A DNA stretch of 64,000 bases, taken from the NCBI GenBank assembly GCA_013360675.1, contig JABWBB010000007.1, forward strand, positions 1 through 64,000, written 5' to 3'. Positions 1,325 through 6,529 of this stretch are shown piece after piece (position 1 is the stretch's first letter; the number at the start of each line of letters is the position of its first letter). The notes below the pieces were generated by a model. It did not search any database. It was not told where the DNA came from and worked only from the letters and a program-made list of their open reading frames with translations. This stretch comes from Phycisphaerales bacterium (GTDB taxonomy: Bacteria > Planctomycetota > Phycisphaerae > Phycisphaerales > UBA1924). Made by a program: the position numbers and the translations under genes.

Positions 1325-3286
1325 TTATCCCGGTGGCGGCGACTGGGCGAGTTCTCGCGCGAGCGTCTGGGCGCGGTAGGCGAAGATGCGATTGACATCG
1401 CGCGAGACCATGAGCGGGTGCGAGATCCAGTGCAGCGGCGCGCGGTATTCCACTTCGTCGATGATCCTGGTGCCCTCGTCGCAGGGCTCGAAGCGGTGCT
1501 CGTGATGCCACCAGCGGTAGGGCCCGCTCACCTGCTCGTCGATGAAGCGGTGAGGAGGGTCCCACGCGGTGATCCGCGAACGCCAGCGCATCGGCACCCC
1601 CCGGATCTTGATGCGGTAGTCGATGAATGCGCCCGCGTGCATGCGGATGGGCAACGACGTGAGGATTCTGAAGGCAACCCAGGGCGGGGTGATCCGGTCG
1701 AGATTGGCCGCGTCGGAGAAGAATGCGAACGTCTCGTCGAGTGGGCGTGGGATGATGGTTTCTGCGCGGAAGAACCGCAGCCCCCGCGCCGGGCGTGAAG
1801 GGGGAGGTCCATCGCCGAGGGATTCCGCGGTGCGGCATAAGCCGCGGAGCATCCCGCCGAAGACGATGGCGTGCAGGGGCAGGACCGACCACCAGTACAC
1901 AAGCCCGAGCAGGCCCTTGGGCCTGAAGGTGGCGTGCTGGACCACCAGCGTGCGGCCGTCGGCGCGGGGCTCGAGCGACCACTCGAGCATGGCCTTGCCC
2001 GGGAGACGCATCTCGGCGGTGAGTTCGAGGCGTCGCCCTGGTTCAAACCCGGTCACGCGCCAGAAGTCGACGGCGTCGCCGAACTGAAGCTGTGTGCGGT
2101 TGCGTCGTCCACGTCGCAGGCCGGGCCCGCCGACGAGGCGATCGAGCACGCCGCGGATCCGCCAGAGAAGGCTGGAGCCGAAGTAGCCGTGCTCGCCGCC
2201 GATCTTGTTGAGGACCTGCAGGACGTCGTGCGGGGGGGCCCACGCGATGCGTTCACGCCGGTCATGGAACACCTTGCCGCCCGACCAACTCGGATCTCCG
2301 GGCATCGGGCCCGCGTCGCTCCAGGAGGAAGGTGGGGCGCCCGTATTGATCTCGGCGACGGCCTGTGCGATGGCGGCCTGCGCGGAAAGGAGCGGCGAAG
2401 GCATGAGTCTGGACGCGTCGTCGTTGCGGCAGACCGCGCGATTGCGCAGACCCTCGGCGAGCGGGCGAGCCAGGCGGTGGCTGATGGGGGTGATGAGGTG
2501 GATCCAGCGGCTGCTCAGCCCCGGCGTGAGCACACCGACGGGGATCACCAGGCGGCGTCGGAGGCCCAGTTGCTCGGCGGTGATGCGCATGAGCCGGTCG
2601 TAGCTGAGCACGTCGGGCCCGCCGATGTCGAGATTCCTGCCCGCGGTTTCGGGGGTCTGGAGGCAGGCGACGAGATAGTGGATCACATCGCGGATCGCGA
2701 TGGGCTGGCTCAGCGTGCGGACCCAGCGCGGTGTGATCATGATGGGAAGACGTTCGACGAGGTAACGGAGAATCTCGAAACTGGCGGAGCCGGAACCGAT
2801 GATCATCGCCGCACGGAGCGTGGTGACGGAAACTCCGCCTGCGCGGAGCGCGGATTCGACGTGGCGTCGGGAGGCGAGGTGATCGCTGAGATCCTGGGAT
2901 TCATCGCCGAGGCCGCCGAGATAGATCAACCGCCGGACCCGGGCCCGTGCCGCCGACTGGCCGAAGGTCGTGGCGAGATCCTGGTCGGCATGGGCGAACG
3001 TGGAGCCCGCGGAGACCATGGTGTGAACGAGGTAGTACGCCGCATCGCAGCCCTCGAGCGCGCGGACCACATCGTCGGGGCGATCGAGGGAACAGGCGAC
3101 GGTTTCGAGCCTTGGGTTTCCGGCCCAGGGCCGGGCGTGGATCTTGCGTGGCTCGCGCACCAGGCAGCGCACGGAGTAGCCCGCCTCGAGGAGCGCGGGG
3201 ACGAGCCGGCCGCCCACGTATCCCGTAGCGCCGGCCACGGCGAGTCGTGCTCCGGGCGGGATGGTGTCGGTGGTGGTGATCGTCAT
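1325..3286 (-). CDS. SDR-like NAD(P)-binding protein fused to DUF2867 and SRPBCC domains
   Basis: The 653-residue protein has three parts. Residues 15-300 form an atypical short-chain dehydrogenase/NmrA-like Rossmann fold with the nucleotide motif AGATGYVGG (about 18-26). Residues about 340-500 match DUF2867. Residues about 510-650 are an SRPBCC (START-like) lipid or ligand-binding domain with paired-Trp segments (YRWWHHEH). The ATG at 3286 is chosen because the Rossmann fold begins shortly after it; a GTG at 3361 would add 25 unconserved residues. DUF2867 fused to an NAD(P)-binding domain is a known architecture, but its reaction is not established. It lies 141 bp downstream of the SOUL gene on the same strand and may share its transcript. 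Confidence 0.85.
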   Translation of the reverse strand: MTITTTDTIPPGARLAVAGATGYVGGRLVPALLEAGYSVRCLVREPRKIHARPWAGNPRLETVACSLDRPDDVVRALEGCDAAYYLVHTMVSAGSTFAHADQDLATTFGQSAARARVRRLIYLGGLGDESQDLSDHLASRRHVESALRAGGVSVTTLRAAMIIGSGSASFEILRYLVERLPIMITPRWVRTLSQPIAIRDVIHYLVACLQTPETAGRNLDIGGPDVLSYDRLMRITAEQLGLRRRLVIPVGVLTPGLSSRWIHLITPISHRLARPLAEGLRNRAVCRNDDASRLMPSPLLSAQAAIAQAVAEINTGAPPSSWSDAGPMPGDPSWSGGKVFHDRRERIAWAPPHDVLQVLNKIGGEHGYFGSSLLWRIRGVLDRLVGGPGLRRGRRNRTQLQFGDAVDFWRVTGFEPGRRLELTAEMRLPGKAMLEWSLEPRADGRTLVVQHATFRPKGLLGLVYWWSVLPLHAIVFGGMLRGLCRTAESLGDGPPPSRPARGLRFFRAETIIPRPLDETFAFFSDAANLDRITPPWVAFRILTSLPIRMHAGAFIDYRIKIRGVPMRWRSRITAWDPPHRFIDEQVSGPYRWWHHEHRFEPCDEGTRIIDEVEYRAPLHWISHPLMVSRDVNRIFAYRAQTLARELAQSPPPG

Positions 3287-3427
3287 GACGGCGTCTGCTT
3301 CATGTGGAGCGTACGGGATGGGGACCGTTGCTGAGACTTGGTGCCGAGAAAGTGTCGGCACTCAGCCCTGCCAGGCGGGAATGATGCGCGGGCGAAGGTG
3401 CGCGCATGTGGCTTTTACAACTGGGCC

Positions 3428-4270
3428 TTACATGCGGTCGGGCGCCGATGTCGCGGGCTTTGCGTCGACTGGACGAACGGGCAACTGCACCTCGGCCCAC
3501 TTATTCCAGAAGAGGAGCGAGGGGCCGTTGTAGTACAAGGTGCGCCAGGACCCGTCGGCCACCCAGGTCGGATTGGCGGCGAGCCAATCCTCGATCTGGC
3601 GCATGCCGCGCTCGACGAGCGACATGGAGTAGTCGCCACGGAGACCCACGGCCAGCACGGTGATCGGCTGGGCGTCGCGCACGGTGATGTCGCCCTCGAC
3701 GCCGGTCGTGTGCATGTCGGGTGTGCGATAGAGGAAGGCCATGGACCACTGCTCGGAGGACTTGGCCGGGCGTTCATCGAGATCGTCGAAGTTCATCTCG
3801 ACGGGGGAGGTCATGGCGATGCCATGGCTCTTGATGTGGTTGAAGAGCGGCCAGAATGCCCGGTTCATGCCGCTGTCGGGTGAGCCCTTGCCAGAGACCT
3901 CGGCCATGCGCACGAGCGGATACGTCTTGATGTCGATCGCACCGGGCGGGGTGGGGGGCGGATATCCCTCGGGGAGTGGTGTGTCGATGCGGCTTGGACC
4001 ACTGCGGTAGTCCCCCTTCACGTAGGTTGCCTCCGCCGTGAGATCGCCCCCAACGCGGGCGGTCTGCCCCGGCGGCAGTGGATGGGCGGGGAGATTGACG
4101 TTGGGGGCGTTGGACAAGGCGCCTTCTCCGTGAGTGCGTAAGGAATGAGTGCCGTCGTGTGTATGGGAAGGGTTGGAGCCCGGGCCATGGCAACTTGCTG
4201 CCGTGACAGCAACGGCCGCCAGGGGCAGGTAACGACGGAGCAGGGGAACAACGGCAAGATTCACGGGCAT
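3428..4270 (-). CDS. SOUL-family haem-binding lipoprotein
   Basis: The 280-residue protein starts at an ATG preceded by an excellent ribosome site (AAGGAGG, 5-base spacing). Longer upstream starts run through the promoter region. The N-terminus is a lipoprotein signal: RR near residue 12, a hydrophobic run, then TAASC with the lipidation Cys at 27. The mature part holds the SOUL fold (about residues 90-270), with conserved segments such as AMTSPVEMNFDD and VGLRGDYS. SOUL/HBP proteins bind haem or tetrapyrroles in characterised cases; here haem binding is inferred from family only. The gene is divergent from the fasciclin gene, with its promoter and an operator-like element in the intergenic region. 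Confidence 0.88.
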   Translation of the reverse strand: MPVNLAVVPLLRRYLPLAAVAVTAASCHGPGSNPSHTHDGTHSLRTHGEGALSNAPNVNLPAHPLPPGQTARVGGDLTAEATYVKGDYRSGPSRIDTPLPEGYPPPTPPGAIDIKTYPLVRMAEVSGKGSPDSGMNRAFWPLFNHIKSHGIAMTSPVEMNFDDLDERPAKSSEQWSMAFLYRTPDMHTTGVEGDITVRDAQPITVLAVGLRGDYSMSLVERGMRQIEDWLAANPTWVADGSWRTLYYNGPSLLFWNKWAEVQLPVRPVDAKPATSAPDRM

Positions 4271-4288: not shown

Positions 4289-4305
4289 ACGTTCAAAACG
4301 TGCAT
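4289..4305. repeat. Operator-like element, SOUL-proximal copy
   Basis: CGTTCAAAACGTGCAT (4290-4305) matches the fasciclin-proximal copy at 14 of 16 bases. It contains a perfect 5-bp inverted repeat, ACGTT-CAA-AACGT (4289-4301). It sits just downstream of the predicted -10 of the SOUL promoter, where bound protein would block initiation. The MerR-type protein encoded at 5612 is the obvious candidate ligand, but that is inference. Confidence 0.55.
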
Positions 4306-4307
4306 CA

Positions 4308-4335
4308 ATCATACACTCTGAGAGCGCGGTGTCGA
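4308..4335 (-). promoter_or_regulatory. Predicted housekeeping-sigma promoter for the SOUL gene
   Basis: Read on the minus strand, TCGACA (4335-4330) and TATGAT (4313-4308) are separated by 16 bases, one and one mismatch from TTGACA and TATAAT. The -10 lies about 38 bases upstream of the SOUL start codon. The operator-like element follows it directly. Confidence 0.55.
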
Positions 4336-4390: not shown

Positions 4391-4418
4391 TTGACCGAAC
4401 CGCCGGGCGTGGTAAAAT
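4391..4418 (+). promoter_or_regulatory. Predicted housekeeping-sigma promoter for the fasciclin gene
   Basis: TTGACC (4391-4396) and TAAAAT (4413-4418) are separated by 16 bases. An adjacent TTGAC starts at 4386. The region is clearly richer in A+T than its surroundings. The second copy of the 16-bp element begins at the base after the -10, mirroring the arrangement at the divergent SOUL promoter. Confidence 0.6.
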
Positions 4419-4434
4419 CGTTCAAACCGTTCAT
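4419..4434. repeat. Operator-like element, fasciclin-proximal copy
   Basis: CGTTCAAACCGTTCAT repeats the SOUL-proximal element with two mismatches. Its half-sites CGTT and (imperfectly) ACCG flank CAA. It abuts the predicted -10 hexamer of the fasciclin promoter, the position expected for a repressor site. Confidence 0.55.
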
Positions 4435-4548
4435 TGCTACGGACATCGTCGTCTGTGCGGATGAGCGGGTCACCCGCCTGCTGATGCAACGAAGTCGCCG
4501 GGGTGGCGGCGGGGGAACGAGATTTACCCGGACTCAATGGGAGTTGAA

Positions 4549-5526
4549 ATGAACACGTCTATGAAGATCGGATCGGTCGGCCTGCTCGTGGCGTTAACGG
4601 GTGGTGCGTTTGCCCTGGCGAGCACCTTGAGCGAGGAGACCAAGGGCGTTGCGGAAACCCGCGAGATCGAAGCCGCGGAGCAGACGGCGGGCGGTGACAT
4701 CGTGGACACCGCGTTGGCCGCGGGCTCGTTCAATACGCTGGCCACGGCTTTGAAGGCCGCCGGTCTGGTGGAGACACTCAAGGGCAAGGGCCCCTTCACG
4801 GTCTTTGCGCCGACGGATGAGGCCTTTGCCAAACTGCCGCCCGGCACGGTCGAGAGCCTGCTGAAGCCGGAGAACAAGGCTCAACTGGCGGCGATTCTGA
4901 CGTACCACGTGGTGCCCGGGTCGGTCCTGGCGTCGAAGGCGATCACGCTCAGCAATGCCGGCAGCGTCAATGGCCAGCGGATCGACCTCGCCGTCAAGGA
5001 TGGGAGGTTGATGCTCGATGGGAAGGCGATGGTGACCAAGGCGGATATTTCCTGCAGCAACGGGGTGATTCACGTGATTGACACCGTGATCCTGCCCGTG
5101 CAGAAGGACATCGTGGACATCGCCGTCGAGGCGGGTTCATTTAATACCCTCGCGGCGGCGCTGAAGGCCGGCGGACTGGTCGAAGCCCTCAAGGGCAAGG
5201 GCCCATTCACGGTGTTCGCTCCCACGGATGCGGCCTTTGCCAAGCTTCCCAAGGGCACGGTGGAGAATCTGCTCAAGCCGGAGAACAAGGACCGGCTCGT
5301 GTCGATCCTGAAGTACCACGTCATCCCCGGCTCGGTGTACGCCGACCAGGTGATGACACTCAAGGAGAGCGCCCCGACACTGCAGGGCTACACGCTTCAG
5401 GTCAACGTGAAGGATGGCGTGGTCTCCCTGGGCAATGGTGTGGCGATGGGCAAGGTTGCGAGCGCTGATATTGAAGCGTCCAACGGCGTCATCCACGTGA
5501 TCGATACCGTGCTGCTGCCCGAGTAA
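4549..5526 (+). CDS. Secreted protein with two fasciclin (FAS1) domains
   Basis: The 325-residue protein has an N-terminal signal peptide (about residues 1-24) followed by tandem FAS1 domains at about 48-185 and 188-325. Both carry the family signatures: [15 protein letters not shown] and YHVVPGSV in the first, [15 protein letters not shown] and YHVIPGSV in the second. The two domains are close internal duplicates. The ATG at 4549 is preferred over the one at 4537 because of the GGGAG upstream and the better signal peptide. FAS1 domains act in adhesion or ligand binding outside the cell. The gene is followed 85 bp later by the MerR/CarH-like regulator on the same strand, probably one transcript. 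Confidence 0.92.
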
Positions 5527-5611: not shown

Positions 5612-6529
5612 ATGGCATTGCCCCATCAACTTCTCACGACACGTCAGCTCGCCCAGGCCCTGGGCGTGAGCGAATCGTCCGTCAAGCGTTGGATCGATGG
5701 CGGCGAGATCGAGGCACACCTCACGAGCGGCGGGCACCGGCGCATCGAGGTCGAAGCGGCGATCCGGTTCATCCGTCGTCAGCGGATGCAGCCCGTGGCC
5801 CCTCACCTGCTCGCGCTTCAGACGACTCCGATTCTGGGCGAGTCAGATCCGAAGACGGCGGATCTTCTGTACGACGCGCTGTATGTGGATGACGCCTCAC
5901 AGGCTCGCGCCATCATCAGCGGACGTATCTTGTCCGGCGCGGATATCGCGACGGTCGGCGACATGCTGATCCGCCCGGTCATGCATCGCCTGGGCGAGCT
6001 CTGGAAAAATAATGCGGAGGGGATCCTGCTCGAGCATCGGGCGGTGGAGACGTGCATCCATGTGCTGGCCGAGGTGGCGACATGGTTGCCGATTCCCTCG
6101 GCAGATTCGCCCGTGGCGATCTCTGCCGCCGGCCCGGGGGATGTGTACCTGCTCCCCCCCATGCTGGCATTTCTCGTGCTTCGAGAGTGTGGCATGCGGG
6201 CGTTGAACCTGGGCCCGATGACGCCGTATTCGACCACGACGATGGCGATTCAGCGCTATGGCGCCAGGCTGTGCTGCCTCAGTCAGAGCATCGCGCTTGA
6301 TACTGGCTCTGCCACCGAGTTTCATGGATTGCTCGACACGGCGCACGACGCGGGTTGCCAGGTGATTGTGGGCGGGCGACGCGCAGAGACGATTCCGGCT
6401 CGGGTGCGCGAGCAGGTCTATGTGGCGGGCTCGATGGTTGAGTTGTCAGCCTTTGCCAGGGGTCTGGCCACGGGGGCGGCCGCCAAGTCTCGTGAATCTT
6501 CGAGACGCGGACGGGGGCGAGTGTCCTAG
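5612..6529 (+). CDS. MerR-type regulator with CarH-like cobalamin-sensor fold, axial ligands lost
   Basis: The 305-residue protein has a MerR/excisionase-type winged helix (residues about 8-55, with GVSESSVKRWIDGGEI and SGGHRR). A four-helix cap domain (about 75-160) and a Rossmann-like B12-binding-type domain (about 165-295) follow. This is the CarH/LitR light-sensor architecture. The cap keeps the Wx9EH signature as W131, E141, H142. The residue after the Trp, His132 in Thermus CarH, is Lys132, and the lower-axial ExHxxG motif reads DVYLLP (177-182), so the His is Tyr179. Adenosylcobalamin binding in the standard way is therefore doubtful. It follows the fasciclin gene and probably acts on the two operator-like elements upstream. 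The start at 5612 is set by the HTH and a GGAG upstream; an ATG at 5540 would add 24 residues. Confidence 0.85.
   Translation: MALPHQLLTTRQLAQALGVSESSVKRWIDGGEIEAHLTSGGHRRIEVEAAIRFIRRQRMQPVAPHLLALQTTPILGESDPKTADLLYDALYVDDASQARAIISGRILSGADIATVGDMLIRPVMHRLGELWKNNAEGILLEHRAVETCIHVLAEVATWLPIPSADSPVAISAAGPGDVYLLPPMLAFLVLRECGMRALNLGPMTPYSTTTMAIQRYGARLCCLSQSIALDTGSATEFHGLLDTAHDAGCQVIVGGRRAETIPARVREQVYVAGSMVELSAFARGLATGAAAKSRESSRRGRGRVS

Follow-up and report, generated by a model that had tools for sequence, protein, structure and literature searches.

How a CarH-like sensor could work when the residues at both axial cobalamin-ligand positions are replaced is the question raised by a regulator gene in the window, the 64,000-nt stretch of Phycisphaerales DNA analysed here. 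The lower His of CarH is regarded as indispensable if B12 is to bind: Thermus CarH H177A neither binds AdoCbl nor forms tetramers, and the equivalent change in M. xanthus abolishes function (PMC4557120). Nevertheless, a family with a conserved Tyr at this site is still attached to light-protection genes. Such a family would point either to a new design for a light sensor based on B12 (or another tetrapyrrole) or to a third path along which CarH-like repressors gave up their dependence on B12. The fold, the ligand motif, the conservation of Tyr, the operator and the gene context are direct results of computation; a literature search for a Planctomycete CarH gave no match in the collection of papers searched.

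Architecture and ligand motifs of the regulator

The regulator gene and its elements are located as follows.

5612–6529, + strand: regulator gene, 305 aa; BldC/HTH_17-type wHTH, four-helix bundle and B12-type Rossmann fold
5630–5782, + strand: wHTH, residues 7–57 (HTH_17, E 9.7e-10)
6002–6037, + strand: Wx9EH motif (W131, E141, H142), with K132 and N133 replacing the upper-ligand His
6140–6376, + strand: B12 motif with Tyr for His, D177-x-Y179-x2-P182-x41-S224-x-S226-x27-G254G255

In Pfam the regulator matches HTH_17 (9.7e-10) and, weakly, B12-binding_2, with PF02310 absent from its matches. The AlphaFold2 model (pLDDT 94.3, pTM 0.91) has CarH (8e-13), CtMerR (1.1e-12) and photocobilins as its best Foldseek matches, and the sequence aligns to CtMerR (8JBS) and Thermus CarH without gaps through the ligand motifs. 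W131, E141 and H142, visible in both the ORF translation and the alignments, reproduce the adenosyl-contact motif Wx9EH of CarH and class I LitR at the numbering of Thermus CarH, as a preliminary description of this DNA had reported. Both replacements that it had pointed out are also borne out. Lys132 (codon AAA) occupies the site of CarH His132, the upper ligand of the bis-His light state, where CtMerR has Arg; Tyr179 (TAC) aligns with the lower-ligand His of CtMerR and Thermus CarH (His177 in CarH). Position 133 is Asn (AAT), and residues 177–182 include no His. Measured against the CarH motif of a Myxococcales study, D/ExHx2G/P-x41-SxT/V-x22-27-GG (PMC9304148), the regulator has Tyr for His and a conservative S-x-S, with every spacing right. 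Pro182 was considered as a further anomaly and dropped, since CarH motifs permit G/P and SasPcob also has Pro there.

In sequence and in the predicted model, the regulator is a CarH-like fold without canonical axial histidines. This part of the earlier interpretation stands, but the weight it gave to the loss of His132 does not: the equivalent position is Arg in CtMerR, Gln in SasPcob and Tyr in AbDPcob, all still light-responsive (PMC11796333). Proteins that lack this His are thus known to photoswitch with AdoCbl, so that the lower-ligand Tyr is the unusual part of what is, by its sequence, a BldC-headed CarH-like family. The recognition region, SESSVKRWIDGG, is of the HTH_17/BldC type, and the DNA-binding domain is classified as BldC/excisionase-like rather than as the MerR type with an RxWERRY recognition helix that CarH has. 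The score against the NCBIfam CarH equivalog is 57.4 bits (cutoff 400). We do not class the regulator as CarH, since defining features of CarH were tested and not found; it probably works like CarH.

A scan of the genome contigs with the regulator alone gave a single weak locus. The same genome encodes a second B12-fold protein on another contig (L003:1381-2274, contig C9; 297 aa, PF02607 + PF02310), which lacks the ligand His (GPSQSEELAAQ) and is flanked by a UbiE-like methyltransferase on one side and an ECF sigma factor on the other.

Conservation of the sensor among relatives

The preliminary description had proposed aligning homologues at positions 132 and 179. We drew homologues from relatives, 301 genomes of the order and 392 genomes of the phylum, and aligned 118. 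Position 132 is variable, and position 179 is Tyr in 97, His in 10 and another residue in 11, so that 107/118 have Tyr or His. The order-level tree requires seven changes for the His label at 179, six of them forced by well-supported branches, and a larger tree built without column 179 gives six Tyr/His switches. Retention as Tyr or His with repeated interchange is expected of a cofactor-facing residue, not of a decaying one. As judged from these alignments, Tyr179 is a family-wide feature and not a defect of one protein. Linkage between Tyr/His179 and Pro182 (Fisher p 0.015) was dropped as unsupported on the tree, which holds four independent pairs.

The surroundings of this site are strongly kept. 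Among the 118 homologues, E141 is present in 114, D177 in 113, P205 in 117, and G201 and G255 in all. Expressed for the family, the elements with adenosyl-contact roles in CarH/CtMerR (PMC11796333, PMC9304148) reach 90% (W131), 99% (E141), 100% (G201) and 99% (P205); GG is conserved at 98–100%, and R26, W27, T38, G40, H42 and R43 of the wHTH are invariant. The Tyr/His version of the B12 motif, with x41 and x27 spacing, occurs in 85/115 relatives vs 0.25% of shuffled sequences.

Position 133 bears on the possibility of a different tetrapyrrole. A His beside the lost one, at 133, is frequent among the homologues (63 of 118; Cys in 17, Asp in 13), but the regulator itself has Asn133 in a gap-free alignment. 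A sensor of haem, a porphyrin or a bilin could use 133 (His/Cys) and 179 (Tyr/His) as axial ligands, with the regulon answering photosensitising tetrapyrroles, and the residues most frequent at these sites are ones that commonly ligate haem. The regulon repeatedly includes SOUL genes, and a haem-binding variant of the B12 fold exists in AppA SCHIC, which resembles the regulator as a domain of this fold whose tetrapyrrole ligand has changed. Trp222, two residues before S-x-S, is found in 107/115 relatives; it may affect or crowd the nucleotide-tail pocket, or occupy it, and so would fit a different tetrapyrrole and count against AdoCbl, though the regulator has Cys here, as does CtMerR. Asn133 speaks against the haem-type reading, as do the retained GG and S-x-S, which line the nucleotide-tail site in B12 proteins. 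Moreover, corrinoid proteins dominate the matches of the regulator, AppA SCHIC and its haem His are not recovered at E<=1, and the Trp cap is replaced in SCHIC whereas W131 is kept in the regulator. We regard another tetrapyrrole as quite unlikely to be the ligand here. Cys222 of the regulator is encoded at 6275–6277 of the window; the three closest relatives have Ser there.

Other variants occur within the family. E-R replaces E-H in 18 relatives. In one subfamily (L208-L227; e.g. L212:5000-5881, L215:5042-5920) this change is accompanied by Cys133 (WxCGxxxxYQERRACEI), Tyr179 is retained, and the neighbours are FAD oxidase, DUF1365 and CFA genes. Two convergent paralogous regulator genes lie side by side at one locus (L190:4450-6287), and a tandem pair has a second copy without the motifs (L227:5078-7046). 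Several genomes of the order also have other B12-fold proteins with a canonical His (L026-L033; e.g. GNHHQIG), so both types occur in the group.

Putative operators and the probable light regulon

Upstream of the regulator, the window contains the following features.

1325–3361, − strand: SDR/NmrA + DUF2867 + SRPBCC fusion; recurrent neighbour, probable regulon member
3428–4270, − strand: SOUL haem-binding family lipoprotein-like gene (PF04832, E 2.4e-7); divergent, probable target
4289–4304, + strand: operator 2, ACGTTCAAAACGTGCA, one mismatch, ~19 bp upstream of the SOUL start
4308–4335, − strand: promoter-like TCGACA-16-TATGAT, which would drive SOUL; operator 2 begins 4 bp past the −10
4391–4418, + strand: promoter-like TTGACC-16-TAAAAT, which would drive FAS1 and the regulator; operator 1 abuts the −10
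4418–4433, + strand: operator 1, an exact direct repeat of two units, TCGTTCAAACCGTTCA; the only exact match in the 2.9-Mb genome
4537–5526, + strand: two-domain fasciclin (FAS1) protein; lies 85 bp ahead of the regulator, with which it probably forms an operon

The SOUL gene had been described as adjacent to the regulator and as a hint of haem sensing. The fasciclin gene stands between the two, and SOUL looks rather like an operator-carrying target gene.

Upstream regions of the family contain a strong tandem motif with a 9-bp period, CGTTCAAAW (unit also written AAAWCGTTC). Arrays precede 56/77 order-level sequences (shuffles: mean 4.4, maximum 9), and a match with <=2 mismatches was found in 17 of 42 independent phylum loci that were not used in motif discovery (shuffles 0.07, random genomic stretches 0.5). 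The unit AAAW-CGTT-C matches the format of the BldC operator, 9-bp direct repeats AATTxxxxC (PMC5859096), in line with the BldC-type wHTH, and the 9-bp direct-repeat organisation of BldC-type DNA binding is thereby found at the level of sequence. Operators 1 and 2 lie 114 bp apart, both within the SOUL/FAS1 divergent region. Operator 2 is one of two one-mismatch sites in the genome; other near-matches lie mostly within coding sequence, none in a divergent promoter like this one. The regulator gene has no operator immediately in front of it; the operator precedes FAS1 instead, and autoregulation would proceed through a FAS1–regulator operon, given that the regulator follows FAS1 by 85 bp. The position of the putative operators next to the −10 elements of predicted divergent promoters suits repression.

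Family regulators are usually divergent to, or among, a recurrent set of neighbours: in raw counts of relatives, SDR-DUF2867 (36), fasciclin-type (28, a mixed cluster with a CIA30 protein among its members), photolyase (25), FAD oxidase (17), DUF1365 (16), CFA synthase (15), FolE (12), SOUL (10) and desaturase (6). A core light gene lies within 5 kb of 67/115 family members. In P. putida, the genes under light-dependent control of LitR include PhrB, UfaM and FolE (PMC9758184), a set that the family's neighbours match. The light-regulon context of LitR/CarH-type regulators is thus found at the family level, and the window locus has the SDR-DUF2867 gene. The two-domain fasciclin gene (4537–5526) recurs beside these regulators phylum-wide.

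From these data, the regulator very probably acts as a light-regulon repressor. It might instead be degenerate, or an ordinary stress regulator with no tie to light whose locus was kept by chance synteny. Some subclades (L101, L102, L110, L113) do sit in non-light contexts and the window locus has no photolyase, but operator and light-regulon context are shared across the phylum, pocket and wHTH are strongly conserved, and the gene has no stops and a high-confidence fold. We consider a regulator of this kind very unlikely.

Association with core light genes is similar for all ligand classes (6/10 with His179, 49/84 with His or Cys at 132/133, 12/21 with neither), and the regulatory task therefore appears independent of the axial His. 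This independence, together with the loss of AdoCbl binding in CarH H177A, would suit a light-regulon repressor that does without B12, its vestigial pocket kept for oligomerisation and its repression lifted by a separate photoreceptor or antirepressor. There are precedents in class II LitR with its short LOV partner and in M. xanthus CarA with CarS, B12-independent relatives that control light genes. However, the LOV signature GRNCRFLQ is missing from the genome (97% complete) at <=2 DNA mismatches, no conserved partner gene lies beside the regulator, where the recurrent neighbours are of target type, and the Rossmann B12 motif is strongly constrained, unlike the drifted C-terminal domain of class II LitR. 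We judge B12-independence possible but unlikely.

AdoCbl as the candidate ligand and comparison with known systems

Of the three readings, we favour AdoCbl held without a lower His. Conservation within the sensor is among its highest at the adenosyl-contact elements and the nucleotide-tail motif, a cobalamin adenosyltransferase is encoded in the genome, and the nearest relatives of solved structure are B12 photoreceptors. Co-occurrence with the adenosyltransferase was discarded as evidence because 289/301 genomes have that gene. On the other side stand CarH H177A, the 18 E-R relatives, the photolyase locus of the genome, at which there is no operator, and HaAI-2E, which has Arg at the lower-ligand site and binds OHCbl but not AdoCbl or MeCbl (PMC11796333). 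AdoCbl as the ligand therefore remains tentative, somewhat short of an even chance.

The explanation that we put forward is an autoregulated, AdoCbl-based CarH/LitR-like repressor of a light/photo-oxidative protection regulon; we infer that it represses transcription, controls its own expression, responds to light and has cobalamin as its ligand. In the repressing state, the regulator would bind head-to-tail to the 9-bp AAAWCGTTC repeats, located where transcription from the divergent SOUL and FAS1-regulator promoters would begin, and would block RNA polymerase. The signal would be sensed by the helix-bundle/Rossmann cobalamin pocket, in which Tyr179 would pack against, or weakly ligate, the cobalt of AdoCbl, while W131, E141/H142 and G201xxxP205 would hold the adenosyl group in the way known from CarH. 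Light would then break the Co–C bond, the adenosyl group would depart and the regulator oligomer would loosen. Taken as a whole, this explanation falls only just below an even chance. The chances are evenly balanced that a phylum-wide class of light-responsive repressors has moved to a tetrapyrrole chemistry with Tyr/His at the lower and His/Cys/none at the upper axial position, by His-off AdoCbl photolysis or with a different tetrapyrrole chromophore housed in the CarH fold. For comparison, the family already offers natural members with Tyr and with His that share gene neighbourhoods and have related operators, and the operator is a direct substrate for DNA-binding assays.

Among known systems, Myxococcus CarA is also a CarH paralogue with an altered cobalamin-pocket motif, but it keeps the His motif and misses the Trp of Wx9EH, the reverse of the regulator (PMC9304148). 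Class II LitR (Pseudomonas PplR/PmlR) shares PhrB-, FolE- and UfaM-type light genes and has no canonical B12 ligand; its similarity to the B12 Rossmann domain is gone and a short LOV protein serves as its partner, whereas the regulator keeps fold and motif. BldC has the same wHTH type and head-to-tail operator format (PMC5859096), but no sensor domain, and its repeat, AATTxxxxC, differs from AAAWCGTTC. Thermus CarH and class I LitR share the fold, Wx9EH at identical numbering, GxxxP and GG; the regulator lacks their His132 and His177 equivalents and has another wHTH class and another operator. The best match is CtMerR of Chloracidobacterium thermophilum (8JBS/8JBT; 2e-24, profile 8.5e-45), which forms an AdoCbl tetramer in the dark and is monomeric in the light (PMC11796333). 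CtMerR resembles the regulator in architecture, HTH_17-like wHTH, Wx9EH, the non-His residue at 132 (Arg) and a Cys before its S-x-T, but it keeps the lower-ligand His204 where the regulator has Tyr.
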